A stretch of DNA of 64,000 nt from Sphaerolaimus hirsutus. Lineage: Eukaryota > Nematoda > Chromadorea > Monhysterida > Sphaerolaimidae. This document shows positions 21,544 to 61,834 of this stretch, piece by piece. Below the pieces are notes generated by a model. That model had not been told where the DNA came from, ran no database searches, and saw nothing but the letters and a program-made list of their open reading frames with translations. The stretch covers positions 27,725,785 through 27,789,784 of the forward strand of contig OZ038452.1 of NCBI GenBank assembly GCA_964036195.1. The letters are read 5' to 3'. The translations under genes were made by a program, and so were the position numbers. Within the stretch, counting starts at the first letter, position 1; each line of letters begins with the position of its first letter.

Positions 21544-21564
21544 AATTGAGGCGTCGAATTCTAA

Positions 21565-22062
21565 AAGTCGACAAGTCCAAATTTGGAAAATTTGAGTTAA
21601 CCCCGTGAAAATGATCTGGGGATGGTCCCTCTCATTTTTCAAAATTTTCCATAAATTTTCCTACCTCACATTCCCCTATACGACCATGCCAAATTTGACC
21701 ATTTTGGGGGAAAATGGAGAAAATTTGGGCAAGAAGTCGACAAGTACGCCTAGTTTTTGGGCAAAAAGTCGACAAGTCCACCTTGTGCAGCCTTTTTTGT
21801 TGGGACAAAAAAAGCAAGAAATGTGTTAAGTCCGCTATGGGCAGTGATTTCTAAAAGTCGACAAGTACAAAAATAGCCCATAAGGCAAATTTTTTCAAGC
21901 TGGGAACAAAAATGTTTGCAAGTGCAAGAAGTCGACAAGTCCACTCCCCTGCCCATAAAATTTTTTTGGGCAAGAAGTCAACAAGTCCATGCCTGATTAG
22001 AGCTAAAAGTCGACAAGTCCATTTCATTAACGCAAGAAGTCGACAAGTCCACTTTTGTTTAC
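21565..22062 (+). repeat. Array of AAGTCGACAAGTCC motifs at the left end of S1
   Basis: Eight copies of the 14-15 bp motif (A/G)AAGTCGACAAGTCCA, all in the same direction, at about 21,566, 21,735, 21,767, 21,857, 21,928, 21,976 (one base changed), 22,006 and 22,034. They are spaced irregularly (about 28-170 bp) in otherwise unique sequence. The terminal inverted repeat ends with the same motif. This is the layout of multiple subterminal transposase-binding sites known from En/Spm, Ac and P elements. Confidence 0.75.
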
Positions 22063-22079
22063 TGAACATTGTTTGTAAA

Positions 22080-24075
22080 AGTAGTGCCATTTCCATGGCG
22101 TTGGCGCCATTTTTATGGAGTGGCACTATTGACTCCAAAGTAGCGCCATTTCCATGGCGTTGGCGCCATTTTTATGGAGTGTTGCTGTTGACTCCAAAGT
22201 AGCGCCATTTCCATGGCGTTGGCGCCATTTTTATGGAGTGGCACTATTGACTCCAAAGTAGCGCCATTTCCATGGCGTTGGTGCCATTTTTATGGAGTGG
22301 CACTATTGACTCCAAAGTAGCGCCATTTCCATGGCGTTGGCGCCATTTTTATGGAGTGTTGCTGTTGACTCCAAAGTAGCGCCATTTCCATGGCGTTGGC
22401 GCCATTTTTATGGAGTGGCACTATTGACTCCAAAATAGCGTTATTTCCATGGCGTTGGCGCCATTTTTATGGAGTGACACTATTGACTCCAAAGTAGCGC
22501 CATTTCCATGGCGTTGGCGCCATTTTTATGGAGTGTTGCTGTTGACTCCAAAGTAGCGCCATTTCCATGGCTTGGCGCCATTTTTATGGAGTGGCACTAT
22601 TGACTCCAAAGTAGCGCCATTTCCATGGCGTTGGCGCCATTTTTATGGAGTGGCACTATTGACTCCAAAGTAGCGCCATTTCCATGGCGTTGGCGCCATT
22701 TTTATGGAGTGTTGCTGTTGACTCCAAAGTAGCGCCATTTCCATGGCGTTGGCGCCATTTTTATGGAGTGTTGCTGTTGACTCCAAAGTAGCGCCATTTC
22801 CATGGCGTTGGCGCCATTTTTTTGGAGTGGCACTATTGACTTCAAAGTAGCGCCATTTCCATGGCATTGGCGCCATTTTTTTTGAGTGGCACTATTGACT
22901 CCAAAGTAGCACCATTTCCATGGCGTTGGCACCATTTTTATGGAGTGTTGCTGTTGACTCCAAAGTAGTGCCATTTCCATGGCATTGGCGCCATTTTTAT
23001 GGAGTGGCACTATTGACTCCAAAATAGCGTTATTTCCATGGCGTTGGCGCCATTTTTATGGAGTGGCACTATTGACTCCAAAGTAGCGCCATTTCCATGG
23101 CGTTGGCGCCATTTTTATGGAGTGGCACTATTGACTCCAAAGTAGCGCCATTTCCATGGCGTTGGCGCCATTTTTTTGGAGTGGCACTATTGACTCCAAA
23201 GTAGCGCCATTTCCATGGCGTTGGCACCATTTTTATGGAGTGTTGCTGTTGACTCCAAAGTAGTGCCATTTCCATGGCATTGGCGCCATTTTTATGGAGT
23301 GGCACTATTGACTCCAAAATAGCGTTATTTCCATGGCGTTGGCGCCATTTTTATGGAGTGGCACTATTGACTCCAAAGTAGCGCCATTTCCATGGCGTTG
23401 GCGCCATTTTTATGGAGTGTTGCTGTTGACTCCAAAGTAGCGCCATTTCCATGGCGTTGGCGCCATTTTTATGGAGTGGCACTATTGACTCCAAAGTAGC
23501 GCCATTTCCATGGCGTTGGCGCCATTTTTATGGAGTGGCACTATTGACTCCAAAGTAGCGCCATTTCCATGGCGTTGGCGCCATTTTTTTGGAGTGGCAC
23601 TATTGACTCCAAAGTAGCGCCATTTCCATGGCGTTGGCGCCATTTTTTTTGAGTGGCACTATTGACTCCAAAGTAGCGCCATTTCCATGGCGTTGGCACC
23701 ATTTTTATGGAGTGTTGCTGTTGACTCCAAAGTAGTGCCATTTCCATGGCATTGGCGCCATTTTTATGGAGTGGCACTATTGACTCCAAAATAGCGTTAT
23801 TTCCATGGCGTTGGCGCCATTTTTATGGAGTGGCACTATTGACTCCAAAGTAGCGCCATTTCCATGGCGTTGGCGCCATTTTTATGGAGTGTTGCTGTTG
23901 ACTCCAAAGTAGCGCCATTTCCATGGCGTTGGCGCCATTTTTATGGAGTGGCACTATTGACTACAAAGTAGCGCCATTTCCATGGCGTTGGCGCCATTTT
24001 TATGGAGTGGCGCTATCAACTCCAAAATGGCGCCATTTCCATGGCGTTGGCACCATTTTTCTGGAGTGGCACTAC
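22080..24075 (+). repeat. 59-bp tandem satellite, left arm of S1 (about 34 copies)
   Basis: Monomer begins TAGCGCCATTTCCATGGCGT, continues TGGCGCCATTTTTATGGAGT and ends GGCACTATTGACTCCAAAG. The period is strictly 59 (one copy has a 1-bp deletion near 22,570). Main variants are TGTTGCTGTTGACTCC for TGGCACTATTGACTCC, AAAATAGCGTTATTTCC, and TTTTTTTGGAG for TTTTTATGGAG. Because 59 is not a multiple of 3, the long frames across it simply repeat every 177 bp and are not genes. Confidence 0.95.
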
Positions 24076-24655
24076 ACTTTTTTTCAAAAAAATTTTTAAT
24101 ATTTTTTAAATATTTTTTTCAACATTTTTTTCAAATTTTTTTCCAAAATTTTTTTATAATTTTTTTTAATTTTTTTTTTCAAATTTTTTTTTAATTTTTT
24201 TTTAAACTTTTTTTAATTTTTTTTTAAATTTTTTTTATTTTATTTTATTTTTTATTATTTTTTTAAAGTTTTTTAATTTTTTTTTGTTTCAATTTTTTTC
24301 TTTAATTTTTATATTTTTTTAATATTTTTTCTCAAATTTTTTTTTCTTTTTTTTAATTTTTTTTATTATTTTTTTTCAATTTTTTTTCTAATTTTTTTAT
24401 ATAATTTTTTTAAATTTTTTTATTATTTTTTTTTCACATTTTTTTTGTTTCAATTTATTTTTCAAATTTTTTTTTATTTTATTTATTTTTTATTTATTTT
24501 TTTATTATTTTTTTTTATTTTCTTTAAAAAATTTTTCACATTTTTTTTTTATTTTTGAAAAAAAAATTTTTTTAAAATTTTTTTTCCAAATTTTTTTCTT
24601 CAAATTTTCTTAAAAATTTTTTTGTTAAATTTTTTTTTTCTCAAATTTTGTGTTC
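24076..24655 (+). repeat. Poly-T-rich tract in S1
   Basis: About 580 bp made almost wholly of T-runs of 4-10 separated by A, AA or C (for example TTTTTTTTAATTTTTT). The mirror tract of A-runs lies on the other side of the core. Confidence 0.9.
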
Positions 24656-24990
24656 AAATTTTTCCATTTCCTTGGCTCCGTTCCAATGCAAGAGTCTTGT
24701 ATGATAGGGCCAACACTAGATATATAACCATGTATATGAATGAAAATAGAGATTATGAAGGTGGAAATTGGCAAAGTAGAGCAAATTTGACAATTTTTAG
24801 CTAACTTTGAGTTTTCACTCTCATTAGTATAATACGCAACTGATAAGTGGGATGAGGGCCACGTTCTGATACATGACCCAATCCGTTCCAATCCTTTGAA
24901 TATGGCGACGCAAAAATGACGTCATGCACTCTCCACTGGAGAGATTGACGCAAATGTTTGTAGGGTGATACGTCTGCCAACTTATACATA
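24656..24990 (-). repeat. Core sequence K inside S1
   Basis: Unique core with CTTGGCTCCGTTCCAA, GAAGGTGGAAATTGGCAAAG and CACTCTCCACTGGAGAGA. The same roughly 350-bp sequence is found in F2 (44,636-44,992) and in S2 (58,960-59,330). S1 lacks about 50 bp (GCGGATTTTGAAATTTTGGC...) that S2 and F2 keep. No frame longer than about 90 codons. Confidence 0.75.
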
Positions 24991-25264
24991 ATTTTATTTA
25001 TTGAGTTTTATCAATTTTGCTTATCAATTATTTCAACAATACAATATTTTTTCAGAATCACACAAAATTAAACAATGAACAACAGTGTCATCTCAGTAAC
25101 ATCTAGGGATGGAAAGTACATCCTAGTACAACTAGTCTAGTTTTTGATACAACCCTGAACAATAATGTCCGTAACAAATCATGGCAGCATGCTAACTCAA
25201 ATTAAATCTGAAAAAGATTCACATAATAGGGCCAACTTCTTCCACTGAAGAATAAAAGCAACTT

Positions 25265-25622
25265 AAAAACTTAAAACTTTATTTAAAAAATTTAAAAACA
25301 ATAAAAAAGAAAAAAAAAATATTTAAAAAAATTTTGAAAAAAAGAAGAAAAAAATTGATACAAAAATGTTTAAAAAAATTTTAGAAAATTTTGGAAAAAA
25401 AAGAAAAAATAATAATAAAAAAATTTTTATTTAAAAATTAAAAAAAAAATTGAAAAAAAAATGTATAAAAAAATTCTTAAAAAAATTTGCAAAAAAATTT
25501 TTTCAAAGATAAAATTTGGAGAAAAAAATTTGAAAAAAGTTATAAAAATAAAGAAAAATTTGAAAAAAAATTTGAAAAAAATTTATAAAAAAAATTTGAA
25601 AATTTTTGTTGAAAATTTTGGA
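25265..25622 (+). repeat. Poly-A-rich tract in S1
   Basis: A-runs with single T or G breaks; mirror image of the T-rich tract at 24,076-24,655. Confidence 0.85.
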
Positions 25623-26610
25623 GTCGACAGCACCACTCCATAAAAATGGCGCCAATGCCATGGAAATGGTGCTATTTTGGAGTTGTTAGCACCACTCCAT
25701 AAAAATGGCGCCAATGCCATGGAAATGGCGCTATTTTGGAGTTGATAGCGCCACTCCATAAAAATGGTGCCAATGCCATGGAAATGGCGCTACTTTGGAG
25801 TCAATAGTGCCACTCCATAAAAATGGCGCCAACGCCATGGAAATGGCGCTATTTTGAAGTTGATAGTGCCACTCCATAAAAATGGTGCCAACGCCATGGA
25901 AATGGCGCTACTTTGGAGTCGATAGTGCCACTCCATAAAAATGGCGCCAACGCCATGGAAATGGCGCTACTTTGGAGTCAATAGTGCCACTCCATAAAAA
26001 TGGCGCCAACGCCATGGAAATGGCGCTACTTTGGAGTCAATAGTGCCACTCCATAAAAATGGCGCCAACGCCATGGAAATGGCGCTGTTTTGAAGTTGAT
26101 AGTGCCACTCCATAAAAATGGCGCCAACGCCATGGAAATGGCGCTATTTTGAAGTTGATAGTGCCACTCCATAAAAATGGTGCCAACGCCATGGAAATGG
26201 CGCTACTTTGGAGTCGATAGTGCCACTCCATAAAAATGGCGCCAACGCCATGGAAATGGCGCTATTTTGAAGTTGATAGTGCCACTCCATAAAAATGGTG
26301 CCAACGCCATGGAAATGGCACTATTTTGGAGTTGATAGTGCCACTCCATAAAAATGGCGCCAACGCCATGGAAATGGCGCTATTTTGGAGTTGATAGTGC
26401 CACTCCATAAAAATGGCGCCAACGCCATGGAAATGGCACTATTTTGGAGTTGATAGCGCCACTCAATAAAAATGGCGCCAACACCATGGAAATGGCGCTA
26501 TTTTGAAGTTGATAGCACCACTCCATAAAAATGGCGCCAACGCCATGGAAATGGCGCTATTTTGGAGTTGATAGCGCCACTCAATAAAAATGGCGCAACT
26601 TCCAGGTGCT
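25623..26610 (-). repeat. 59-bp tandem satellite, right arm of S1 (about 17 copies, reversed)
   Basis: Reverse complement of the left-arm monomer (CTCCATAAAAATGGCGCCAA CGCCATGGAAATGGCGCTA). Common variants here are GTTGATAGTGCC for GTCAATAGTGCC, different from those of the left arm. Confidence 0.95.
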
Positions 26611-27117
26611 TTTAAATCAAATGTTTGCAAGTGCAAAAAGTCGACAAGTCCACATGGTTTAAAGCAAGAAGTCGACAAGTCCGAAGGTGTTTGCAGCAAG
26701 AAGTCGACAAGTCCACCTTTGTTTACTGGATTTTGCTGCTGATTTCTTGCAAATATCCAAATGGCATTTTATGGACACCCCATTTTTCACATAAACGTTG
26801 AGAGCAGGGGTTGAAAATTTGACACTTTATTGTCAACATATGGAACTTAATGTAAAGCATGAGAGAGCCAGATTGGACACGCTGCACAGACCAGAAATTG
26901 GATCTGAAACTTAAAATGCGATTTACTCGAAATCACATTTTGTGGACTTGTCGACTTTTAGAATTAGACGCCTCAATTATGTAAATAAATATTTATCTGA
27001 ACCGCGGTGATGGGCAATTAAAAAATGACACGGGAGAATGGTGAACTTTCCGGCACATGGATGTAATAACAGCGAAAATAGACGCAAATGTGACCAAAAA
27101 ACAAAAAAAACAGTTAC

Positions 27118-27919: not shown

Positions 27920-28414
27920 CAGGGGCGTATCCAGGATGTTTGACCGGGGGGGGGGGCTGCTTGTTTACGGAGGCCGGCGAGCGGGGGGGGGGGGGCTCAG
28001 GGTTCAAACGGGATCGACTTTTTGGGATCGGGATTCACTTTTTGAGATTTTGGGATTGGGATCGGGATCGGGATTAGAGTTTCGGGATCGGGATTGGTAT
28101 TTTGAGATTTCGTGATCGGGATCGGGATTGGCCGGGATTGGGGTCACGGGATCGGGATTGGCATTTTTTCGGGATCGGGATTGGGGTCTAGGGATACAAA
28201 TACAGCAAATAGCACACGATCGAGTCGTTTTTTAACGATTTGCGGCTACAGGGAGCAAATATGATGATAATACCTCATCTCTGGTAATAAATGCATTGCG
28301 CGCAAATTTTTTTTTGCTGATGTTGAAAAAGTCAGATTTTCCGGTCACTTTCTGGTCTCACCCGGGAAGGGGGGGGCTGCAGCCCCCCCGGCCACCCCCC
28401 TGGATACGGCCCTG
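27920..28414 (-). mobile_element. hAT-type MITE, family C (copy C2), carrying a family D fragment
   Basis: CAGGGGCGTATCCAGG...GGATACGGCCCTG with perfect target duplication TGTCAAAT (27,912-27,919, 28,415-28,422). From about 28,011 to 28,195 it holds the left arm of family D (AGGGTTCAAACGGGATC and GGGATC hexamers) without a right end. Confidence 0.85.
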
Positions 28415-28584
28415 TGTCAAATGTCATGTAGTGTGAAAAGTTATAGAAAGTGCCCTGCTAAAAAGCCAAGTTTTTTTCAAACCCGTGAAATATAGGTTTC
28501 ATTACACATAGCTGCTAAAGTGCCATTAAATGCTCAACCAGTATTTATTTAGGAGTGCTACAGTAAATATCAGAACTGTGAATA

Positions 28585-29057
28585 CAGGGGTCTCCAGGAT
28601 TTTGGCCCTCGCGGGGGCTGGATAGATAGCAAATCGCTCCTCCGGAGGGATAGATAGCTGAAAAAAATTTCTGGGGGGGGCTTGGGGGTGGCTCGCGGGG
28701 GCAAATTATAGAGGTTTTTTCAGTGCATAGAAGGCAAAAAGGGGGAAAAATCAGTAAAAACGGGCTAAAAATGGTTAAAAATAGGTATTTAAACATGTAC
28801 ATAGGCGAAAGCCGCAATTTTGAAGGTGAAAAACTATAAAATGGTATGAAAAGTAGGGATTTTGAGCGAAAATTGGGACAAAATTTCTCAAAAATCACTC
28901 CAGATAGGTAGGTAGCTGAGCGATTTGGGGGGGAGGCTAAGGGGGTAGTAGCCAAAAATTTTGCCTCGGGATAGATAGATAGCTGAGCGGCCTCCGGGAT
29001 AGATAGATAGCTGACGGATTTGGGGGGGGCAGCCCCCCCCCCCCTAGGAGACCCCTG
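28585..29057 (-). mobile_element. hAT-type MITE, family A (copy A3)
   Basis: CAGGGGTCTCCAGG...CCTAGGAGACCCCTG with perfect 8-bp target duplication TGTGAATA (28,577-28,584 and 29,058-29,065). It interrupts the repeat phrase CAGAACTGTGAATAGTTGGC. Confidence 0.95.
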
Positions 29058-29129
29058 TGTGAATAGTTGGCATTTTGCAGGGCATTTTCCATGAGTTTTG
29101 AACGCCAGGTGGCAAACCCAGACGTATGA

Positions 29130-29208
29130 AATTACCTTGAAATACCGCCAGGGGATGTATTATTTAACCAGCAAAATTTGAAGGGGGGGGGTAATTCGAA
29201 ATAGCTAT
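29130..29208. mobile_element. Family B relic
   Basis: ATTACCTTGAAATACCGCC followed by GGGGGGGGTAATTCGAAATA; both arms are shortened. It is duplicated at about 32,912-32,986 in the second tandem unit. Confidence 0.4.
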
Positions 29209-29760
29209 CATTGACATGCTTCCAAACCAAGACATAAATCAGTGCCAGCACAGAGTATCAATCCCGCCCAATATTTTCAACAAAAGAAACAATGTAAACA
29301 CCGGACCCGTTGGAGGCGTCCAGGGCGGCGCTGCCAGTCTCTGAGCCATTGGTCATGTTTGCCCAGCGGGCGATCCGCGACAGGGCACTTTGTATGACTT
29401 TTGACACTTTGCATCACATTTGACATTTTACGGGGTCTGGGAGTGGATGACAAATGAACCAAATGAAATCCCATTTGGGCGTGTGACAAAACCTCAAAGC
29501 CACACAAAGCTGGGGCCAGTTCCGCAAGTGGAGATCTAAAATGGCAAACAAAGTGAATTGAGAAGTAAAATGGCAAAACCGAATTGAATTGAGAAATTAA
29601 AATAGCAAAAGCGAAGAGATATTACGTTTTTATTTTTATCTTTTTACTACGCTTTGCCAATTTACTTGCCATTTTACTTCGTTTTTTTTTCATTTAACTT
29701 CTCACTTCTCCACTTGCGGAAATGGCACCTGGTCGGGAACAAAAAAATTTATGAAATCAC

Positions 29761-29853
29761 CTGTGCATTGGGATTGGTGACTATGGCGCCCGGTTGTACC
29801 GTCATTCTTGGTTGCTGTTGCATTTGCTGCTGCTGCCAATCCCAGATCAAGTC
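29761..29853 (-). CDS. Candidate Q-rich exon, copy 1
   Basis: Donor GCACAG|GTGATT at 29,760. Acceptor TTTTACAG at 29,854 gives 31 codons in phase 0 at both ends (WQQQQMQQQPRM, TVQPGAIVTNPNAQ). Its phase fits the exon at 27,118-27,292. The acceptor and the first seven codons overlap the repeat phrase CCAATCCCAGATC, so the true exon may begin later, at one of the CAG triplets. Unidentified gene. Confidence 0.4.
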
Positions 29854-30982
29854 CTGTAAAATGTCAAATGTCATGCAAAGTGTCAAATGTCATGGAAAAT
29901 GGTCTGCAAAATGGCAACTACAGTGTCAAGTGTTTAGAGTTTTGATAAATGACCATAGGGGGCAGTCCCAGACCTAGCAAAAAAGCCTGTAAAATGTCAA
30001 ATGTCATGGAAAATGGCCTGCATAATGGCAACTACAGGGCACTTTATGAGACTTTTGACGCTGCATGACATTTGAGTTTTGATAAATGGTGTCAGGGGGC
30101 AGTCCCAGACTCCCAGATCTAACAAAAAGGGCTGTAAACGGTCAAATGTCATGGAAAATTGCCTGCAAAATGGCAACTACCAGACACTTTATGAGACTTT
30201 TGATGCTGCATGACATTTCAGTTTTGATAAATGGCAAAAGTCGTGTAAAATGTCAAATGTCATGTAAAGTGTGAAAAGTCATGGGAATTGCCTGCCAAAA
30301 TGGCAAGTACATAGCACTTTATGAGACTTTGAACATTGCATGACATTTGACATTTGAGTCTTGATAAATGACCACAGGGGGCAGTCCCAGACCTAGCAAA
30401 AAGACCCTGTAAAATGTCATGTACTGTGAAAAGTTATAGAAAGTGCCCTGCTAAAAAGCTAAAAAGTTTTTTCAAACCCGCGAAATATAGGTTTCATTAC
30501 ACATAGCTGCTAAAGTGCCATTTAAAATGCTTAACCGGTATTTATTTAAAGGAGTGCTACAGTAAATACCCTGTGAATGGTTGGCATTTTGCAGGGCATT
30601 TTCCATGACTTTTGACACTTTGCATGACATTTGACATTTTACACTGCTTTTTACAGGGTCTGGGAGTAGCAACTGGGCCCAAAGCAGTTCCTCGACATCG
30701 AATGCCATGTACTGTGAGAAGTTATAGGAAGTGCCCTGCTAAAAAGCTAAGTTTTTTAAACCCGCGAAATATAGGTTTCATTACACAAAGCTGATAAAGT
30801 ACCATTAAATGCTCAACTGGTATTTATTGAGGAGTGCTACAGTAAATACCAGAACTGTGAATAGTTGGCATTTTGCAGGGCATTTTCCATGACTTTTGAC
30901 ACTTTGCATGACATTTGACATTTTACACTGCTTTTTACAGGGTCTGGGAGTAGCAACTGGGCCCAAAGCAGTTCCTCGACAT

Positions 30983-31432
30983 CAGGGTAGTATCCAGGAT
31001 TTTTGAGCGGGGGGGGGCTGCTTGTTTACGGGGGCCGGCGAACGGGGGGGGGCTCAGCCCCCCCCCTAAAATTTTTCCCTATATAGGGACGGAAAAGCGT
31101 TTTGGCGCTAGCGCCATACAAAAGCGCCACGCCATGGCGCTATTGGCGTTGGCGCCAGCGCCAGGAACCGCTTTATATGTATGTAAATATGCATACATAT
31201 ACAGCGAAATTCGGAAAAATGTATTCATTTCCAAGGATTTTGGTTTAAAGGGGCCGATCCGCTGAAAATACACTGCACGGGAAAGAAATTGCGCGCTCGC
31301 GCGCAAAATTTTTAAGAAATATCGAAAACTATATCGGAAAAGTTGCATTTTCCAGTACTTTTTAGGTCTCACCCCGGGAAGGGGGGGGGGCTGCAGCCCC
31401 CCCCCCCGCCCCCCCCCCCTGGATACGTCGTG
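30983..31432 (-). mobile_element. hAT-type MITE, family C (copy C3)
   Basis: CAGGGTAGTATCCAGG...CCTGGATACGTCGTG with perfect target duplication CTCGACAT (30,975-30,982, 31,433-31,440). 450 bp, same internal palindromes as C1. Confidence 0.95.
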
Positions 31433-32356
31433 CTCGACATCGAATGTCATGTACTGTGAGAAGTTATAAGAAGTGCCCTGCTAAAAAGCTAAGTTTTTTT
31501 AAACCCGTGAAATATAGGTTTCATTATACAAAGCTGATAAAGTGCCATTAAATGCTCAACTGGTATTTATTTAGGAGTGCTACAGTAAATACCAGAACTG
31601 TGAATAGTTAACATTTTGCAGGGCATTTTCCATGACTTTTGACACTTTGCATGACATTTGACATTTTACAGGGTCTGGGAGTGGCAACTGGGCCCAAAGC
31701 AGTTCCTCAACATTCAGTCGCCATTTTGCAGGGCAATTTCCATGACTTTTGACACTTTGCATGACATTTGACATTTTACAGGGCTTGACTTTTTGGGATC
31801 GGGATTCACTTTTTGAGATTTCGGGATTGGGATCGGGATCGGGATTAGAGTTTCGGGATCAGCATTGGTATTTTAAGATTTCGTGATCGGGATCGGGATT
31901 GCCCGGGATTGGGGTCACGGGATCGGGATTGGCATTTTTTCGGGATCGGGATTGGGGTCTAGGGATACAAATACAGCAAAAAGCACACCATCGAGTCGTT
32001 TTTTAACGATTTGCGGCTACAGGGAGCAAATATGATGATAATACCTCATCTCTGGTAATAAATGCATTGCGCGCAAATTTTATTTGCTGATGTTGAAAAA
32101 GTCAGATTTTCCGGTCACTTTCTGGTCTCACCCAGGAAGGGGGGGGGGCTGCAGCCCCCCCGGCCACCCCCCTGGATATGGCCCTGTGTCAAATGTCATG
32201 TAGTGTGAAAAGTTACAGAAAGTGCCCTGCTAAAAAGCTAAGTTTTTTTCAAACCCGTGAAATATAGGTTTCATTACACATAGCTGCTAAAGTGCCATTA
32301 AATGCTCAACCAGTATTTATTTAGGAGTGCTACAGTAAATATCAGAACTGTGAATA

Positions 32357-32840
32357 CAGGGGTCTCCAGGATTTTGACCCTCGCGGGGGCTGGATAGATA
32401 GCAAATCGCTCCTCCGGAGGGATAGATAGCTGAAAAAAATTTCTGGGGGGGGGGGCTTGGGGGTGGCTCGCGGGGGCAAATTATAGAGGTTTTTCAGTGC
32501 ATAGAAGGCAAAAAGGGGGAAAAATCAGTAAAAACGGGCTAAAAATGGCTAAAAATAGGTATTTAAACATGTACATAGGCGAAAGCCGCAATTTTGAAGG
32601 TGAAAAACTATAAAATGGTATGAAAAGTAGGGATTTTGAGCGACAATTGGGACAAAATTTCTCAAAAATCACTCCAGATAGGTAGGTAGCTGAGCGATTT
32701 GGGGGGGAGGCTAAGGGGGTTGTAGCCAAAATTTTTGCCTCGGGATAGATAGATAGCTGAGCGGCCTCCGGGATAGATAGATAGCTGACGGATTTGGGGG
32801 GGGGCAGCCCCCCCCCAGCCCCCCCCCTAGGAGACCCCTG
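32357..32840 (-). mobile_element. hAT-type MITE, family A (copy A4)
   Basis: Duplicate of A3 with the same target duplication TGTGAATA (32,349-32,356, 32,841-32,848). The C/G runs differ in length, giving 484 bp. Confidence 0.95.
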
Positions 32841-33540
32841 TGTGAATATTTGGCATTTTGCAGGGCATTTTCCATGAGTTTTGAACGCCAGGTGGCAAAC
32901 CCAGACGTATGAAATTACCTTGAAATACCGCCAGGGGATGTATTATTTAACCAGCAAAATTTGAAGGGGGGGTAATTCGAAATAGCTATCATTGACATGC
33001 TTCCAAACCAAGACATAAATCAGTGCCAGCACAGAGTATCAATCCCGCCCAATATTTTCAACAAAAGAAACAATGTAAACACCGGACCCGTTGGAGGCGT
33101 CCAGGGCGGCGCTGCCAGTCTCTGAGCCATTGGTCATGTTTGCCCAGCGGGCGATCCGCGACAGGGCACTTTGTATGACTTTTGACACTTTGCATCACAT
33201 TTGACATTTTACGGGGTCTGGGAGTGGATGACAAATGAACCAAATGAAATCCCATTTGGGCGTGTGACAAAACCTCAAAGCCACACAAAGCTGGGGCCAG
33301 TTCCGCAAGTGGAGATCTAAAATGGCAAACAAAGTGAATTGAGAAGTAAAATGGCAAAACCGAATTGAATTGAGAAATTAAAATAGCAAAAGCGAAGAGA
33401 TATTACGTTTTATTTTTATCTTTTTACTACGCTTTGCCAATTTACTTGCCATTTTACTTCGTTTTTTTTTCATTTAACTTCTCACTTCTCCACTTGCGGA
33501 AATGGCACCTGGTCGCGAACAAAAAAATTTATGAAATCAC

Positions 33541-33633
33541 CTGTGCATTGGGATTGGTGACTATGGCGCCCGGTTGTACCGTCATTCTTGGTTGCTGTTG
33601 CATTTGCTGCTGCTGCCAATCCAAGATCAAGTC
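33541..33633 (-). CDS. Candidate Q-rich exon, copy 2 (tandem duplicate)
   Basis: Same frame, donor and acceptor as the exon at 29,761-29,853; 93 bp, phase 0 to phase 0. If both are used they would add the Q-rich segment twice without a frameshift. Confidence 0.35.
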
Positions 33634-34941
33634 CTGTAAAATGTCAAATGTCATGCAAAGTGTCAAATGTCATGGAAAATGGCCTGCAAAATGGCAACTA
33701 CAGTGTCAAGTGTTTAGAGTTTTGATAAATGACCATAGGGGGCAGTCCCAGCCCTAGCAAAAAAGCCTGTAAAATGTCAAATGTCATGGAAAATGGCCTG
33801 CATAATGGCAACTACAGGGCACTTTATGAGACTTTTGACGCTGCATGACATTTGAGTTTTGATAAATGGTGTCAGGGGGCAGTCCCAGACTCCCAGATCT
33901 AACAAAAAGGGCTGTAAACGGTCAAATGTCATGGAAAATTGCCTGCAAAATGGCAACTACCAGACACTTTATGAGACTTTTGATGCTGCATGACATTTCA
34001 GTTTTGATAAATGGCAAAAGTCGTGTAAAATGTCAAATGTCATGTAAAGTGTGAAAAGTCATGGGAAATGCCTGCCAAAATGGCAAGTACATAGCACTTT
34101 ATGAGACTTTGAACGTTGCATGACATTTGACATTTGAGTTTTGATAAATGACCACAGGGGGCAGTCCCAGACCTAGCAAAAAGACCCTGTAAAATGTCAT
34201 GTACTGTGAAAAGTTATAGAAAGTGCCCTGCTAAAAAGCTAAAAAGTTTTTTCAAACCCGCGAAATATAGGTTTCATTACACATAGCTGCTAAAGTGCCA
34301 TTAGCATTAAATGCTTAACCGGTATTTATTTAAAGGAGTGCTACAGTAAATACCCTGTGAATGGTTGGCATTTTGCAGGGCATTTTCCATGACTTTTGAC
34401 ACTTTGCATGACATTTGACATTTTACACTGCTTTTTACAGGGTCTGGGAGTAGCAACTGGGCCCAAAGCAGTTCCTCGACATCGAATGCCATGTACTGTG
34501 AGAAGTTATAGGAAGTGCCCTGCTAAAAAGCTAAGTTTTTTAAACCCGCGAAATATAGGTTTCATTACACAAAGCTGATAAAGTACCATTAAATGCTCAA
34601 CTGGTATTTATTTAGGAGTGCTACAGTAAATACCAGAACTGTGAATAGTTGGCATTTTGCAGGGCATTTTCCATGACTTTTGACACTTTGCATGACATTT
34701 GACATTTTACAGGGTCTGGGAGTAGCAACTGGGCCCAAAGAGTTCCTCGACATCAGGGACGTATCCAGGATTTTTGAGCGGGGGGGGGGGCTGCTTGTTT
34801 ACGGGGGCTGGCGAACGGGGGGGGGGCTCAGCCCCCCCCCTAAAATTTTTCCCTATATAGGGACGAAAAAGCGTTTTGGCGCTAGCGCCATACAAAAGCG
34901 CCACGCCATGGCGCTATTGGCGTTGGCGCCAGCGCCAGGAA

Positions 34942-41045: not shown

Positions 41046-41065
41046 GGGTTGCGTTGTTCAATATA

Positions 41066-43717: not shown

Positions 43718-43981
43718 TATTTGATTGTGTAGTAATTCAATCAAATACTACAATCAGAAACGAGAGTCGATAAGAAACAGGCAGTGCCAGTCTAGTACAC
43801 CCTACAGTCTGGCGCATTGCATTTGGATTTAGCTTTCTTATCTCTTATCTAGTCTAGTTTTCATATATTTGTGATTTGGGAGGACATGTAAACACGTCTA
43901 CGCGTGCTATCTTTCACACACATTCGATTCATCTGGCGAATATCCTAATTCTATCTAAATTGTTTGGGCAAGTAATTTGTA

Positions 43982-49353: not shown

Positions 49354-49799
49354 CAGGGCCGTATCCAGGGGGGGGGCGGGGGGGGCTGCAGCCCCCCCCC
49401 CTCCTGGGCGAGAGATAAAAATGTGCAGGAAAATGCGATTTTCAGTATCAATTTTTCAGGTGTTTGCAAAAAATTTGCGCGCAAGCGCGCATTTTCTTAT
49501 GTCGCGTGATCTACTGTCTGCACATCGGTCTCTGTATCCCAAATACCCATTACATGTAAATACACAAATATACGTTTTTCGCTCTATATGTATGCATATT
49601 TACATACATATACAGCGGTTCTCGGCGCCAGCGCCGACGCCAATGGCGCCATAGCGTGGCGCCTAGGAATGACGCCAGTGCCATGACACCATTCAATCAC
49701 CATTAAGGTAAAATTTTAGGGGGGATGGCTCAGCCCCCCCTCGCCGGGTTCTGTAAACAAGCAGCCCCCCCCAGCTCCAAAATCCTGGATACGTCCCTG
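49354..49799 (+). mobile_element. hAT-type MITE, family C (copy C5)
   Basis: CAGGGCCGTATCCAGG...CCTGGATACGTCCCTG with perfect target duplication ATGACATT (49,346-49,353, 49,800-49,807). 446 bp. It disrupts the repeat phrase CCATGACATTTGAC. Confidence 0.95.
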
Positions 49800-50114
49800 A
49801 TGACATTTGACACTTTGCATGACATTTGACATTTTACAGGGCTTTTTACAGGGTCTGGGAGTGACAACTGGGCCCAAAGCAGTTCCTCGACAGTCAGTCG
49901 CCATTTTGCAGGGCATTTACCATGACATTTGACACTTTGCATGACATTTGACATTTTACAGGGCTTTTTACAGGATCTAGGAGTGACAACTGAGCCCAAA
50001 GCAGTTCCTCAACATTCAGTCGCCATTTTGAAGGGCATTTACCATTACATTTGACACTTTGCATGACATTTGACATTTTACAGGGCTTTTTACAGGGTCT
50101 GAGAGTGGCACCTG

Positions 50115-50790
50115 GGCCCACAGTAGTTCCTCAACATTCAGCTTCAACTTGAACTTCACCTTGAACAATCGTGGGTCAGCGCCTGATGAAAAGCTACATA
50201 AAACAACAAAATGCAATTCTCTAAAAAAATGTGTTACCGAGCAAGGCTGTAGAACACTTATAGTGTAAAACATTTCAGCATTTTAAAAAAAGTAAGTCCT
50301 CATAAATGACGCCAGGGGGCAGTCCCAGACCTAGTAAAAGGCCCTGTAAAATGTCAAATGTCATGCTGTGTCAAAAGTCCTAGAAAGTGCCCTGAAAACG
50401 GCGACCTACCTGCAGACATCCAAGGATGAATAAATGTGTAATGGACCAACATGAAACAAGAGAAATGACACAATCAACAGGTGCCAATCCCAGATCCTGT
50501 AAAAAGCCCTGTAAAATGCCGAATGTCATGCAGTGTCAAACGTCATAGAAAGTGCCGTGGAAATTGCGAGTCAATGTTTTGCAGGGCGTTTTCGATGACT
50601 TTGACAGTTTGTCAACCCCTTCACGCACCTGTAGACATGGACCACCTGCAATCACCTACATGGAACAAACGCAGTCACACAATCAGTAGCTGCCAATCCC
50701 AGATCAAGTCCTGTAAAATGTCAAATGTCATGCAAAGTGTCAAAAGTCATGGAAAATGGCCTGCAAAATGGCAACTCACCTAGCAAAAAG
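50115..50790 (+). repeat. 670-bp repeat block, copy 3
   Basis: Parallel to 36,715-37,390. Confidence 0.7.
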
Positions 50791-50989
50791 CCCTGTAAAA
50801 TGTTGAATGTCAGGGCACTTTATGAGACTTTTGACGCTGCATGACATTTGACATTTGAGTTTTCATAAATGGCAAAAGTCCTGTAGAATGTCAAATGTCA
50901 TGTAAAGTGTGAAAAGTCATGGGAAATGCCCGCCAAAATCGCAAGTACACAGCACTTTATGAGACTTTAAACGTTGCATGACATTTGAC

Positions 50990-51760
50990 ATTTGAGTTTT
51001 GATAAATGGCGTCAGGGGGCAGTCCCAGATCTAGGAAAAAAAGCCTGTAAAATGTCAAATGTCATGGAAAATGGCCTGCAAAATGGCAACTACAGGGCAC
51101 TTTATGAGACTTTTGACAGTGCATTACATTTGACATTCGAGTTTTGATAAATGGCATCAGGGGGCAGTCCCAGATCTAGGAAAAAAGCCTGTAAAATGTC
51201 AAATGTCATGGAAAATGGCCTGCAAAATGGCAACTACAGGGCACTTTATGAGACTATTGACACTGCATGACGTTTGACATTTGAGTTTTGATAAATGGTG
51301 TCATGGGGCAGTCCCAGACTCCCAGATCTAGCAAAAAAGCCTGTAAAATGTCAAATGTCATGGAAAATGGCCTGCAAAATGGCAACTACCAGGCACTCTG
51401 TGAGACTTTTGACGCTGCATGACATTTGACATTTGAGTTTTGATAAATGGTGTCAGGGGGCAGTCTCAGACTGCCAGATCTAGCAAACAGGCCTGTAAAA
51501 TTTCAAATGTCATGGAAAATGGCCTGCAAAATGGCAACTACCAGGCACTCTGTGAGACTTTTGACGCTGCATGACATTTGACATTTGAGTTTTGATAAAT
51601 GGCGTCAGGGGGCAGTCCCAGATCTAGCAAAAAAGCCTGTAAAATGTCAAATGTCATGGAAAATGGCCTGGAAAATGGCAACTATCAGGCACTTTATGAG
51701 ACTTTTGACGCTGCATGACATTTGACATTTGAGTTTTGATAAATGGCAAAAGTCCTGTAA
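50990..51760 (+). repeat. Tandem array with a period of about 145 bp
   Basis: GCCTGTAAAATGTCAAATGT (one copy TTTCAAATGT) recurs at about 51,041, 51,187, 51,330, 51,490 and 51,636. Each copy is followed by GGAAAATGGCCTG(C/G)AAAATG, TGAGACTTTTGACGCTGCAT and GATAAATGG(C/T)GTCAGGGG. This is the most regular part of the repeat domain. Confidence 0.85.
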
Positions 51761-52199
51761 AATGTCAAATGTCATGTAAAGTGTGAAAAGTCATGGGAAA
51801 ATGCCTGCCAAAATGGCAAGTACATGGCACTTTATGAGACTTTTAACGTTGCATGACATTTGAGTTTTGATAAATGACCACAGGGGGCAGTCCCAGACCT
51901 AGTAAAAAGCTCTGTAAAATGTCAAATGTCATGTACCATGAAAAGTTATAGAAAGTGCCCTGCTAAAAAGCTAAAAAGTTTTTTCAAACCCGCAAAATAT
52001 AGGTTTCATTACACATAGTAGCTAAAGTGCCATTAAATGCTCAACCTGTATTTATTTAAAGGAGTGCTACAGTAAATACCCTGTGAATAGTTGGCATTTT
52101 GCAGGGCATTTTCCATGACTTTTGACACTTTGCATGACATTTGACATTTTACATGGCTTTTTACATGGTCTGGGAGTGGCAAGTGGAAGGAGCTAGACT

Positions 52200-56470: not shown

Positions 56471-56854
56471 AATTGAGGCGTCTAATTCTAAAAGTCGACA
56501 AGTCCACAAAATGCGATTTCGAGTAAATCGCATTTTAAGTTTCAGATCCAATTTGTGGTCTGTGCAGCGTGTCCAATCTGGCTCTCTCATGCTTTACATT
56601 AAGTTCCATATGTTGACAATAAAGTGTCAAATTTTCAACCCCTGCTCTCAACGTTTATGTGAAAAATGGGGTGTCCATAAAATGCCATTTGGATATTTGC
56701 AAGAAATCAGCAGCAAAATCCAGTAAACAAAGGTGGACTTGTCGACTTCTTGCTGCAAACACCTTCGGACTTGTCGACTTCTTGCTTTAAACCATGTGGA
56801 CTTGTCGACTTTTTGCACTTGCAAACATTTGATTTAAAAGCACCTGGAAGTTGC

Positions 56855-58245
56855 GCCATTTTTAGGGAGTCACGCTATCAACTCCAAAATAGGGCCATTT
56901 CCATGGCGTTGGCGCCATTTTTATGGAGTGGTGCTATCAACTCCAAAATAGCGCCATTTCCATGGCGTTGGCGCCATTTTTATGGAGTGGCACTATCAAC
57001 TCCAAAATAGCGCCATTTCCATGGCGTTGGCGCCATTTTTATGGAGTGGCACTATCGACTCCAAAATAGCGCCATTTCCATGGCGTTGGCGCCATTTTTA
57101 TGGAGTGGCGCTATCGACTCCAAAGTAGCGCCATTTCCATGGCGTTGGCGCCATTTTTATGGAGTGGCACTATCGACTCCAAAGTAGCGCCATTTCCATG
57201 GCGTTGGCGCCATTTTTATGGAGTGGTGCTATCAACTCCAAAATAGCGCCATTTCCATGGCGTTGGCGCCATTTTTATGGAGTGGCACTATCAACTCCAA
57301 AATAGCACCATTTCCATGGCGTTGGCGCCATTTTTATGGAGTGGCACTATCGACTCCAAAATAGCGCCATTTCCATGGCGTTGGCGCCATTTTTATGGAG
57401 TGGCGCTATCAACTCCAAAGTAGCGCCATTTCCATGGCGTTGGCGCCATTTTTATGGAGTGGTGCTATCAACTCCAAAATAGCGCCATTTCCATGGCGTT
57501 GGCGCCATTTTTATGGAGTGGCGCTATCAACTCCAAAATAGCGCCATTTCCATGGCGTTGGCGCCATTTTTATGGAGTGGCGCTATCGACTCCAAAGTAG
57601 CGCCATTTCCATGGCGTTGGCGCCATTTTTATGGAGTGGCACTATCGACTCCAAAGTAGCGCCATTTCCATGGCGTTGGCGCCATTTTTATGGAGTGGCG
57701 CTATCAACTCCAAAATAGCGCCATTTCCATGGTGTTGGCGCCATTTTTATGGAGTGGCACTATCGACTCCAAAATAGCGCCATTTCCATGGCGTTGGCGC
57801 CATTTTTATGGAGTGGCGCTATCAACTCCAAAATAGCGCCATTTCCATGGCGTTGGCGCCATTTTTATGGAGTGGCGCTATCGACTCCAAAGTAGCGCCA
57901 TTTCCATGGCGTTGGCGCCATTTTTATGGAGTGGCACTATCGACTCCAAAGTAGCGCCATTTCCATGGCGTTGGCGCCATTTTAATGGAGTGGCACTATC
58001 GACTCCAAAGTAGCGCCATTTCCATGGCGTTGGCGCCATTTTTATGGAGTGGCGCTATCAACTCCAAAATAGCGCCATTTCCATGGCGTTGGCGCCATTT
58101 TTATGGAGTGGCACTATCGACCCCAAAATAGCACCATTTCCATGGCGTTGGCGCCATTTTTATGGAGTGGCGCTATTGACTCCAAAACAGCGCCATTTCC
58201 ATGGCATTGGCGCTATTTTTATGGAGTGGTGCTGTCGACTCCAAA
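56855..58245 (+). repeat. 59-bp satellite, left arm of S2 (about 23 copies)
   Basis: Same monomer as in S1, with the ATCAACTCCAAAATAGCGCC / ATCGACTCCAAAGTAGCGCC variants alternating in short runs. Confidence 0.95.
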
Positions 58246-58660
58246 ATTTTCAAAAAAAATATTCAAATTTTTTTAATAAATTTTTTTCAAATTTTTTTTT
58301 CAAAAGTTTTTTTTTCAATTTTTTTTTATATTTTTCTTTTTTTTAAAATTTTTTTTCAAATTTTTCTTTATTTTTATAACTTTTTTCAAATTTTTTTCTT
58401 CAAATTTTATCTTTGAAAATTTTTTTATACATTTTTTTTATATTTTTTTTTCAACTTAAAAAAAAAATTTTTTTCTTAATTTTTTTTCAAAAAAATTTTT
58501 TTTCTTTTTTTATAACTTTTTTCAAAAAAAATTTTCATAAATTTTTTTTTCAAAATTTTCAAAAAAAATTTTAAAAATTTTTGTATCAATTTTTTTCTTT
58601 TTTTCAAAATTTTTTAAATAATTTTTTTTCTTTTTTATTGTTTTTAAATTTTTTAAATAA
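58246..58660 (+). repeat. Poly-T-rich tract in S2
   Basis: T-runs of 5-10 separated by A or C, as in S1. Confidence 0.85.
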
Positions 58661-59335
58661 AGTTTTAAGTTTTTAAGTTGCTTTTATTCTTCAGTGGAAG
58701 AAGTTGGCCCTATTATGTGAATCTTTCAGATTTAATTTGAGTTAGCATGCTGCCATGATTTGTTACGGACATCATTGTTCAGGGCTGTATCAAAAACTAG
58801 ACTAGTTGTACTAGGATGTACTTTCCATCCCTAGATGTTACTGAGATGACACTGTTGTTCATTGTTTAATTTTGTGTGATTCTGAAAAAATATTGTTTTG
58901 TTGAAATAATTGATATGCAAAATTGATAAAACTCAATAAATAAAATTATGTATAAGTTGGCAGACGTATCACCCTACAAACATTTGCGTCAATCTCTCCA
59001 GTGGAGAGTGCATGACGTCATTTTTGCGTCGCCATATTCAAAGGATTGGAACGGATTGGGTCATGTATCAGAACGTGGCCCTCATCCCACTTATCAGTTG
59101 CGTATTATACGAATGAGAGTGAAAACTCAAAGTTAGCTAAAAATCGTCAAATTTGCTCTACTTTGCCAATTTCCACCTTCATAATCTCTATTTTCATTCA
59201 TATACATGGTTATATATCTAGTGTTGGCCCTATTTTATCCATATTTATAGCGGATTTTGAAATTTTGGCCGGCTGCCAAGTTCTCATACAAGACTCTTGC
59301 ATTGGAACAGAGCCAAGGAAATGGAAAAATTTAAA
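58661..59335 (+). repeat. Unique core of S2, including sequence K
   Basis: Reverse complement of the S1 core. It keeps about 50 bp (TATTTATAGCGGATTTTGAA, TTTTGGCCGGCTGCCAAG) that S1 lacks but F2 has. S2 is therefore nearer to the ancestral core. Confidence 0.75.
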
Positions 59336-59841
59336 CACAAAATTTGAGGAAAAAAAATTTTTAAGAAAATTTGAAGAAAAAAATTTGGAAAAAAAATTAA
59401 TAAAAATAAAAAAATTTTTAAAAATTTAAATAAAAAAAATAAAAATAATAATAAAAAAATAAATAAAAAATAAATAAAAAAATTAAAAAAATATATAAAA
59501 AAAATTATATAAAAAAAATTTGAAAAAAAAATTGAAAAAAAATAATAAAAAAAATTTGAAAAAAGAAAAAAAAATAAAGAAAAAATATTAAAAAAATAAA
59601 AAAATTGAAAAAAATTGAAACAAAAAAAAGAAAAAAACTTTTTAAAAAAATAATAAAAAAATAAAATAAAATAAAAAAAAATTATAAAAAAATTATAAAA
59701 AAATTTTATAAAAAAAATTTAAAAAAAAAATTTAAAAAAATTTTTTTTTAAAAATTTAAAAAAAATTTTGAAAAAAAATTTGAAAAAAATGTTGAAAAAA
59801 AATATTAAAAAAATATTAAAAATTTTTTTAAAAAAAAGTGT
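59336..59841 (+). repeat. Poly-A-rich tract in S2
   Basis: A-runs with TTT and single-base breaks; mirror of the T-rich tract. Confidence 0.85.
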
Positions 59842-61226
59842 AGTGCCACTCCAGAAAAATGGCGCCAAAGCCATGGAAATGGCGCTATTTTGGAGTCAAC
59901 AGCAACACTCCATAAAAATGGTGCCAACGCCATGGAAATGGCGCTACTTTGGAGTCAATAGTGCCACTCCATAAAAATGGCGCTACTTTGGAGTCAATAG
60001 TGCCACTCCATAAAAATGGCGCTAACGCCATGGAAATGGCGCTACTTTGGAGTCAACAGCAACACTCCATAAAAATGGCGCCAACGCCATGGAAATGGTG
60101 CTATTTTGGAGTTGATAGCGCCACTCCATAAAAATGGCGCTAATGCCATGGAAATGGCGCTACTTTGGAGTCAACAGCAACACTCCATAAAAATGGCGCC
60201 AACGCCATGGAAATGGCGTTATTTTGGTATTGATAGTGCCACTCCATAAAAATGGCGCCAACGCCATAAAAATGGCGCTACTTTGGAGTCAATAGTGCCA
60301 CTCCATAAAAATGGCACCAACGCCATGGAAATGGCGCTATTTTGGTATTGATAGTGCCACTCCATAAAAATGGCGCCAACGCCATAAAAATGGCGCTACT
60401 TTGGAGTCAATAGTGCCACTCCATAAAAATGGCGCCAACGCCATGGAAATGGCGCTACTTTGGAGTCAATAGTGCCACTCCATAAAAATGGCGCTAACGC
60501 CATGGAAATGGCGTTATTTTGGTATTGATAGTGCCACTCCATAAAAATGGCGCCAACGCCATAAAAATGGCGCTACTTTGGAGTCAATAGTGCCACTCCA
60601 TAAAAATGGCACCAACGCCATGGAAATGGCGCTATTTTGGTATTGATAGTGCCACTCCATAAAAATGGCGCCAACGCCATAAAAATGGCGCTACTTTGGA
60701 GTCAATAGTGCCACTCCATAAAAATGGCGCCAACGCCATGGAAATGGCGCTACTTTGGAGTCAACAGCAACACTCCATAAAAATGGCGCCAACGCCATGG
60801 AAATGGCGCTACTTTGGAGTCAATAGTGCCACTCCATAAAAATGGCGCTAACGCCATGGAAATGGCGCTACTTTGGAGTCAACAGCAACACTCCATAAAA
60901 ATGGCGCCAACGCCATGGAAATGGTGCTATTTTGGAGTTGATAGCGCCACTCCATAAAAATGGCGCTAATGCCATGGAAATGGCGCTACTTTGGAGTCAA
61001 CAGCAACACTCCATAAAAATGGCGCCAACGCCATAAAAATGGCGCTACTTTGGAGTCAATAGTGCCACTCCATAAAAATGGCGCCAACGCCATGGAAATG
61101 GCGCTACTTTGGAGTCAATAGTGCCACTCCATAAAAATGGCACCAACGCCATGGAAATGGCGCTACTTTGGAGTCAATAGTGCCACTCCATAAAAATGGC
61201 GCCAACGCCATGGAAATGGCACTACT
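59842..61226 (-). repeat. 59-bp satellite, right arm of S2 (about 23 copies, reversed)
   Basis: Reverse-orientation monomers with private variants: GGTATTGATAGTGCC, CGCCATAAAAATGGCGCTAC and one copy shortened to about 43 bp at 59,960-60,000. Confidence 0.93.
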
Positions 61227-61239
61227 TTTACAAACAATG

Positions 61240-61690
61240 TTCAGTAAACAAAAGTGGACTTGTCGACTTCTTGCCCAAAAAAATTTTATGGGCAGGGGAG
61301 TGGACTTGTCGACTTCTTGCACTTGCAAACATTTTTGTTCCCAGCTTGAAAAAATTTGCCTTATGGGCTATTTTTGTACTTGTCGACTTTTAGAAATCAC
61401 TGCCCATAGCGGACTTAACACATTTCTTGCTTTTTTTGTCCCAACAAAAAAGGCTGCACAAGGTGGACTTGTCGACTTTTTGCCCAAAAACTAGGCGTAC
61501 TTGTCGACTTCTTGCCCAAATTTTTTCCATTTTCCCCCAAAATGGTCAAATTTGGCATGGTCGTATAGGGGAATGTGAGGTAGGAAAATTTATGGAAAAT
61601 TTTGAAAAATGAGAGGGACCATCCCCAGATCATTTTCACGGGGTTAACTCAAATTTTCCAAATTTGGACTTGTCGACTTTTAGAATTCGA
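61240..61690 (-). repeat. GTCGAC motif array at the right end of S2
   Basis: GGACTTGTCGACTTCTTG-type motifs at about 61,256, 61,302, 61,379, 61,464, 61,500 and 61,667, all in one direction; counterpart of the S1 left end. Confidence 0.75.
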
Positions 61691-61834
61691 CGCCTCAATT
61701 ATTGGGATTTTATTTTGCAACGAAAACGTTCAAGGCAACAAAATATAATGGACTGGGGATGAATAGAGTGATAGGGCCATCAATTTTTACTGTCCAGATT
61801 TAAAAAATGTCATCTACGAATATGGTGGTGTAAT

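Follow-up and report, generated by a model that had tools for sequence, protein, structure and literature searches.

The window, a stretch of 64,000 nucleotides from the nematode Sphaerolaimus hirsutus, contains two related elements, S1 and S2, separated by ~30 kb, with S2 inverted relative to S1. Both follow the same order: a unique left end, an array of 59-bp units, a T-rich tract, a ~600-bp core, an A-rich tract, the 59-bp array reversed, and a unique right end. S1 occupies 21544..26978 of the plus strand including both AATT target copies, and the element proper (21548-26974) measures 5427 bp. Its left AATT target copy and 32-bp terminal inverted repeat (GAGGCGTC...AAGTCC; 21544..21579, plus strand) match 26943-26978 in inverted orientation over 36 bp at 97% identity, the left-terminal boundary having been fixed from the 4-bp duplications seen in other copies. 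The left end of 533 bp (21544..22076, plus strand) holds seven copies of GTCGACAAGT, which are putative transposase-binding repeats. It is not an inverted copy of the 378-bp right end (26601..26978, plus strand), which holds four, three in plus and one in minus orientation inside the terminal repeat. The interior consists of the left array (22078..24074, plus strand; 33.9 copies by TRF, about 34 units), the T-rich tract (24075..24655, plus strand), the core (24656..25255, plus strand), the A-rich tract (25256..25614, plus strand) and the reversed right array (25615..26596, minus strand; 16.6 copies by TRF).

S2 lies at 56471..61700 on the minus strand, both AATT copies included, and is 5222 bp long proper. 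Along the window, its right end (56471..56848, minus strand; 99.5% identical to that of S1) is followed by the right-arm array of about 23.6 units (56853..58245, plus strand; the TRF row runs over 56853-58247) and by the counterpart of the S1 A-rich tract, reversed and so T-rich (58256..58690, plus strand). The core (58684..59332, minus strand) matches that of S1 at 98-98.6% in two pieces, and the counterpart of the T-rich tract is here A-rich (59326..59840, plus strand). The left-arm array of about 23.5 units (59841..61228, minus strand) is reversed and appears in TRF as overlapping rows at 59847-61228; the 471-bp left end (61230..61700, minus strand) is one internal stretch shorter than that of S1. 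All 21 occurrences of GTCGACAAGT in the window fall inside the ends of S1 and S2. TRF and alignment thus confirm the mirrored layout of satellite, tracts and core given in a preliminary description of this DNA. At gathering scores, the window has no Rfam match, and Pfam gave none for 10 of its 33 open reading frames. On the host side, COX1 on a 14,754-bp contig has 14 in-frame TGA codons, which means that TGA is a sense codon in the mitochondrion.

In S1 and S2, the element boundaries are fixed and marked by terminal inverted repeats, as in TIR DNA transposons. The "matching ends" of the preliminary description hold as inverted copies over those 36 bp, target included, and not over the remainder, where the left and right ends give no inverted match (E<=1e-5). 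In the genome, a 35-bp end word occurs 1050 times (vs 0 for its backwards control), and MITEs of ~650 bp carry the same ends as the S family. The best inverted self-match, formed by array plus tract, extends over 1342 bp at 86% in S1 and 1835 bp at 85% in S2, so that the hairpin of 1-2 kb per arm proposed earlier is correct for the interior. Because the left and right ends behind the 36 bp are not inverted copies, such a hairpin would be interrupted near its base.

The inverted placement of S1 and S2 could be taken for a single segmental inversion, or an assembly artefact, of one locus without any mobile element, and segmental duplication does account for part of the spread of the family: L038-L040 share flanks, so the idea that a rearranged form had transposed three separate times was rejected. 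However, the S1-S2 alignment ends exactly at the element ends (21543<->61701 and 26978<->56471), and the arms differ in length (34 left and 17 right units in S1 vs 24 and 24 in S2). The genome-wide search with ends and core suggested in the preliminary description reveals a dispersed family. The core was found at 33 or more places at 91-100% identity, several of them partial (best 40 of 1656 candidates scored), the right end at a minimum of 40 places at 98-100%, and the exact 40-bp left end in 38 occurrences. Merging S-family ends and cores yields 58 clusters, two of which (L028 and L044) are the two ends of one element, hence at least 57 places, spread over many contigs. This number leaves out seven diverged matches to the core (89-92%, about positions 59-344); the same segment of the S1 core resembles another dispersed repeat at 81-92%. 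Among the same 15 copies, divergence is 0.80% for the left end, 0.74% for the right end and 1.80% for the core, and ends differ between copies by 0.7-0.9%.

Target duplications speak further against an inversion or artefact. Identical 4-bp flanks, constant in length, border 17 of the 18 two-ended copies: 11 are AATT and six are non-palindromic (ATTT three times, AAAT twice, ATCT once), and all 17 fit AWWT with the exception of ATCT. The flanks of L026 are unequal (AATT/ATTT), while L041, beyond the 18, has ATTT on both sides. The first row of L013, which joins a MITE left end to an S right end, was dropped from the flank count, and L014, L019, L023, L025 and L028-L030, for which the fetched stretch shows a single end, are not among the 18. 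Empty sites were found for L011. When its flanks are joined with one ATCT, the query matches 38 scored places besides its own two flanks and reads through the junction in 38 of 38, at 86-91% identity in 36 and 79-81% in two; the L011 locus itself splits the query into 1-151 and 147-296. The empty site is unbroken in five aligned paralogous places. In many paralogs, additional sequence sits ~30 bp away from the junction, pieces 1-118 and 119-294 being roughly 60-120 bp apart, and the L011 target copy therefore had its own small difference near the junction. Other candidates were not clean: in L018 vs L017, the S element plus ~125 bp is absent, the comparison of L011 and L026 with the window repeat at 7.7-8.1 kb was rejected, and flank comparison within the fetched loci gave nothing clean. 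Since identical flanks occur in nearly all two-ended copies and empty sites exist, S1 and S2 are DNA transposons. One inversion or artefact, with no other copies and no empty sites, had been named beforehand as the outcome that would speak against mobility; it is excluded, its probability being close to nil, so the transposon family stands.

The element carries its 59-bp repeat along, as anticipated, with arrays of greatly varying length inside the dispersed copies. Arms range from <1 to about 152 units, and whole copies from 971 bp (L031) to about 15.3 kb (L028+L044, with a right arm of 3.55 kb and a left arm of 3.74+5.22 kb). For L016, L018 and L027, insertions within the arms are counted in the lengths. 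Assembly gaps of 200 N interrupt or adjoin the S sequence at five fetched loci, and the array lengths may therefore in part reflect the assembly. Left and right unit counts are uncorrelated over 17 complete copies (rho -0.05), a comparison that leaves out L031, which has no core; the two arms of a copy thus vary independently.

This independence bears on the idea that the hairpin drives amplification, the folded arms being copied or converted onto each other in a way that keeps the mirror symmetry and expands the arrays. The arms can pair over the self-matches given above, two tandem monomers fold as DNA better than shuffles (z -5.9, 0/200 equal), and arm-fused forms exist (L031, L041, L042). 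Nevertheless, the left and right arms of a copy are no more alike than those of different copies (mean monomer distance 0.104 within 20 copies vs 0.104 between copies), left arms resemble left arms (0.091) and right arms resemble right arms (0.070), and no unit in the wrong orientation was found among the 22 copies examined. There is no homogenisation from arm to arm, and hairpin-driven amplification, with arms that differ independently, is improbable.

A second alternative holds that an independent satellite was captured, or is merely flanked, by the transposon ends, and that free arrays elsewhere are its true source. The arrays of one arm reach about 9 kb, L037 joins an array of 42 units to a left end only, and free arrays could be concealed by gaps in the assembly. 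Against these points, all 77 places of a 42-bp array word belong to the S family: 75 have a core or end no more than 3.2 kb away, and the other two (L045 and L051) carry S-type left-end sequence. For a 39-bp array word, the first places listed (of 666) fall into 14 clusters, and S ends or core are present in every one. As no array without transposon ends was found in the 77 places of the first word or among the matches listed for the second, an independent satellite is very improbable, and the seeding of free arrays suspected earlier finds no instance there either. By the words tested, the 59-bp "satellite" looks private to the S family. Derivation of the unit from the ends was rejected, as shuffles did equally well in 80/100 trials for the left end and 34/100 for the right end; for the core, 7/100 shuffles were equally good.

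The S family is apparently non-coding. In 22 copies, the longest stop-free frame across the core segment has a length of 73-118 aa. The 137-aa core frame of S2 contains an 80-aa piece that aligns free of stops in 20 of 22 copies, several of these alignments being shorter, and L017 and L018 have one stop each within the S2-type frame. The S2 frame has no Pfam match, and the core was not accepted as a gene, its open frame being attributed to chance. With copies that diverge by ~2%, an open frame is no evidence of coding, and a coding core is possible. Compared as inverted copies, the T-rich and A-rich tracts are weakly similar (z 3.4-7.3, 12 copies), while tracts of the same type give z 5.6-21 (T-T) and 12.7-35 (A-A) in 15 comparisons each; judged from these alignments, the two tracts may share an origin.

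The autonomous relative with the same ends that the preliminary description had hoped for did not emerge: no transposase-coding partner occurs among the ends listed (about the first 100 of 1050) and the pairs fetched. End variants with differing next bases were listed at 19 places and at 30 places, and neither list contains two places in facing orientation at the spacing of an element; C2:11482307 and C2:6493747 face a listed end ~0.6 kb away, like MITEs. Four longer facing pairs (L032, of 4.0 kb, L034, L035 and L036) each proved to be a ~650-bp MITE split by inserted sequence. L032 has 25 frames of at least 60 aa, and the eight scanned yielded no Pfam family. In L029 and L030, which have the S right end without a full core and are cut by assembly gaps, the listed parts hold no long frame.

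It is highly probable that S1 and S2 inserted independently and belong to a young foldback-type family of non-autonomous TIR DNA transposons with an array cargo. A transposase encoded elsewhere would probably recognize the 32-bp ends together with the GTCGACAAGT repeats that adjoin them, and insertion would occur at A/T-rich 4-bp targets, mostly AATT but also ATTT, AAAT and ATCT, which are duplicated. The cargo would comprise the mirrored 59-bp arrays, the tracts and the core. The founder presumably already had both arms in opposite orientation, after which each arm would lengthen or shorten alone, with unequal exchange or block-wise slippage as the likeliest process, and loss of the interior in some copies would give the fused arms.

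How satellite arrays start and spread is an open question. With two opposed arrays per insertion and unique parts differing by about 1-2%, the S family lets array growth be followed in many replicates that share one clock, and the left and right arms serve as an internal control for each other, which already argues against hairpin conversion. More tentatively, a foldback transposon with a 4-bp target, possibly of Sola type, might act as a satellite incubator, in which the ends are kept near-identical by transposase constraint and the opposed arrays turn over fast with no exchange between arms. If so, dozens of insertions would be separate replicates of array growth, from <1 to about 150 units per arm, and the birth of tandem arrays could be measured copy by copy within one genome.

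No published description of the S family was found in the literature searched. Helitrons and Helentrons are not known to duplicate their targets or to carry terminal inverted repeats. The S family has both features and does not fit this group. Helentron-type elements such as CgHINE of the oyster are likewise non-autonomous DNA transposons that move satellite-like arrays in the genome, and they have central repeats (PMC9659126); in S elements, the ends are inverted repeats, the target is duplicated and the arrays are two, in opposite orientation. The 4-bp A/T-rich target duplications resemble those of Sola2 (reported as AWWT, also as ATAT, AAAT and ATTT; PMC3627910), a likeness in the target duplications, with ATCT occurring once in the S family. 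Galileo, a foldback-like member of the P superfamily, is similar in that the tandem repeats of its arms expand and contract independently within a copy and its terminal-region repeats are proposed secondary transposase-binding sites, a role that is putative for the GTCGACAAGT repeats. It differs in having few units of ~210 bp (in the F group, an arm holds none, two or three), a known P-type transposase and arms that are true long TIRs (PMC3573991).

The preliminary description knew of no named transposon family with this plan, a view that gives way before the foldback elements, Tetris included, whose inverted arms are made of tandem repeats, as described in PMC4079207. Long inverted arms of tandem repeats are present in S1 and S2 as well, but they do not reach the ends as long TIRs, as they do in Tetris and Galileo. 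In that account, Tetris of Drosophila virilis consists of a terminal domain, tandem repeats, an inner domain and a middle (PMC4079207). Both Tetris and the S family are non-autonomous, place an array of variable copy number between outer and inner domains, have a non-coding middle, and have ends in common with a MITE (DAIBAM for Tetris) with the partner transposase not found (PMC4079207 for Tetris). The two differ in the target duplication (8-10 bp in Tetris vs 4 bp), the outer domain (up to 866 bp in inverted repeat vs 36 bp only) and the unit: that of Tetris (~220 bp) has 37 bp in common with the terminal domain and also forms satellite-like arrays, whereas the 59-bp unit resembles the S ends no more than shuffles do and, by the words tested, was not found outside the family (PMC4079207 for Tetris). 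The plan of the S family is foldback-like and closest to Tetris, and it adds to the foldback elements a transposon that has a 4-bp target and asymmetric ends.

Two related elements lie in opposite orientations in the window, S1 at 21544-26978 and S2 at 56471-61700, and both bear out the mirrored plan of the preliminary description. At the centre of each is a core of ~600 bp. In the S1 direction a T-rich tract precedes it and an A-rich tract follows; outside these lie 59-bp tandem arrays, the right-hand one a reversed form of the left-hand one, and unique left and right ends complete the element. The opposed arrays, or arms, hold ~34 and ~17 units in S1 and ~24 and ~24 in S2. Since the alignment between the elements is bounded by their ends (21543 pairs with 61701, 26978 with 56471) and arm lengths differ between the two, an origin of the pair as one inverted segment is ruled out. 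An arithmetic estimate from 57 places in 348 Mb gives ~0.3 pairs within ~31 kb at random; one such pair therefore needs no special cause. S1 adjoins a direct duplication of ~3.2 kb (28010-31167 and 31781-34941, 97.7% identity). A dense 19-bp repeat, CATGACATTTGACACTTTG-like, occupies 29386-38310 and 47438-52166, nested within tandem repeats of 122, 145, 152, 284 and 368 bp; these regions seem to represent a further repeat family, tandem at several levels.

The two elements belong to a dispersed family. In the assembly (348 Mb, 762 contigs), the S core was matched at 33 places (91-100%, several matches being partial) and at seven diverged partial ones at 89-92%, all among 40 of 1656 candidates scored. 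The right end was found at 40 places or more at 98-100%, and an exact left-end word occurs 38 times. Merging these gives 58 clusters; two of the loci, L028 and L044, belong to a single long element as its opposite ends, so the family occupies at least 57 places. Part of the core is related to a different dispersed repeat.

The 4-bp target duplications anticipated in the preliminary description were also found. Flanks are identical in 17 of 18 two-ended copies (AATT 11, ATTT 3, AAAT 2, ATCT 1), the sole mismatch being AATT/ATTT at L026, and a further copy, L041, has ATTT on both sides. Palindromic AATT alone would be ambiguous, but six cases are non-palindromic and so represent a duplication rather than part of the end: S inserts by 4-bp target duplication. 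One copy, L011, sits within a copy of another repeat. When its flanks were joined with a single ATCT, 38 scored places matched besides its own two flanks, 36 at 86-91% and two at 79-81%, and all 38 are uninterrupted across the junction, where L011 itself splits (1-151 and 147-296). In many of them the leftward part, 1-118, is a separate match with extra sequence between; the target copy has its own difference ~30 bp from the insertion point, and the junction is unaffected. In five of these places that were aligned, the site is unbroken; it reads ATCT at L047 and L049 and ATAT at L046, L048 and L050.

The 59-bp repeat looks private to the element in this assembly, judged by two array words, because the places examined carry S ends or core or lie near them. 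A 39-bp word occurs 666 times, and the first places listed group into 14 clusters, all of them close to S ends or core. Of the 77 occurrences of a rarer word over all contigs, 75 have a known S core or end no more than 3.2 kb away, and the remaining two, L045 and L051, have S-type left-end sequence (read by eye in L045; 94% over the inner 112 bp in L051). L037 comes closest to array escape: its 42-unit array is accompanied by a left end alone. The unit resembles the ends no better than shuffles do (80/100 and 34/100 as good); for the core, 7/100 shuffles were as good.

Arm length varies widely. In 17 complete copies with a core, the left arm has 6-37 units and the right 8-36, uncorrelated (rho -0.05). 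Two further elements lie outside this set: L031, 971 bp long, whose arms are each shorter than one unit, and L028, continued in L044, which spans ~15.3 kb with ~60 and ~152 units and contains an assembly gap. An array word in the right arm of L028 returns at repeated steps of 529, 350 and 350 bp, a spacing that fits growth in blocks of ~1.2 kb. Assembly gaps of exactly 200 N interrupt or border the S sequence of five loci, L019, L023, L028, L029 and L030. The unit folds as single-stranded DNA (dimer z -5.9, monomer z -2.4), and in the 22 copies examined all units found run in the direction proper to their arm. Mean unit distance is 0.104 both between the arms of one copy and between opposite arms of different copies, as against 0.091 among left arms and 0.070 among right arms; for units of the same arm it is 0.079. 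On these distances the founder most likely had distinct arms from the start, which have not been homogenised with one another since; unit distances show no trace of hairpin-driven conversion between them.

Several copies depart from the full plan. In L041 and L031 the arms are joined directly between intact ends, with neither tract nor core; they are joined in L042 too, where the right end is absent from the fetched stretch. A sister group combines the S shell with a second core (L045 1-1601, L051 744-1801 and G000:C4:5296148; three places at 100, 88 and 86%), with two units adjoining the left end in L051 and, by eye, ~five in L045. One contig bears a rearranged copy in triplicate (L038, L039, L040), spread by segmental duplication: its flanks are largely common to all three (best blocks 93-98%). 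A 12.5-kb tandem duplication that includes an S element is suggested at G000:C4:6743188 and 6755706, where the right ends and the array words share an offset of 12,518 bp.

Shorter relatives are abundant. The genome has 1050 occurrences of a general 35-bp end word, against 0 for the control, and ~100 listed places on two contigs include at least 13 facing end pairs 569-615 bp apart. One of these, L033, and a short element in L013 are ~650 bp long and array-less, with 79% (left) and 90.5-92% (right) likeness to the S ends, so S is a long sister of an abundant MITE. Another MITE of this end family, L036, carries an insert with short GGCGCC/CCATGG-rich stretches, by eye like the 59-bp unit.

The inverted repeat at the ends of S1 and S2 is only 36 bp long, the 4-bp target included (97% identity), and inward of it no inverted match was found between the left end (533 bp) and the right end (378 bp). 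Direct copies of its inner part are present in both: the left end has seven copies of GTCGACAAGT and the right end four, and S1 or S2 ends contain all 21 that the 64-kb window holds. Terminal-region repeats of Galileo were proposed as transposase-binding sites (PMC3573991), and the GTCGACAAGT repeats are putative sites of this kind. Among 15 copies with both ends and core, mean pairwise difference is 0.80% (left end), 0.74% (right end) and 1.80% (core), and left-end divergence reached that of the core in 0 of 151 resamplings of copies. CpG density per kb is 28 and 27 in the ends versus 15 in the core (one copy each); CpG methylation, if present in this animal, should speed change in CpG-rich ends. 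Selection for transposase binding or conversion among ends, not separable here, would explain the low divergence.

The likeliest mechanism is mobilisation, through the ends, by a transposase supplied in trans, with arrays, tracts and core as cargo and array length changing by unequal exchange or slippage. An ~80-aa frame in the core is stop-free in 20 of 22 copies over the aligned part; that of S2 has no Pfam match. No transposase-coding partner was found in the listed part of the 1050 ends, the fetched facing pairs or the frames scanned for Pfam. Sola2 target duplications are reported as AWWT (PMC3627910), a pattern that 16 of 17 S duplications fit; these 4-bp A/T-rich targets are a lead, not membership. 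No published description of the family emerged from a search of largely open-access papers, a weak indication of novelty.

In its plan S follows the foldback elements, Tetris above all, for which the published account (PMC4079207) gives an outer domain, tandem repeats, an inner domain and a middle, a MITE with common ends and a partner not found; S has the same domain order and an end-sharing MITE, and for it too no partner was found among the ends and frames covered. The two arms of Galileo are likewise reported to change independently (PMC3573991), as those of S vary. S differs from foldback elements such as Tetris and Galileo in its 4-bp target, its A/T tracts and its wide range of array lengths, and further in having a short terminal inversion ahead of internal opposed arrays.
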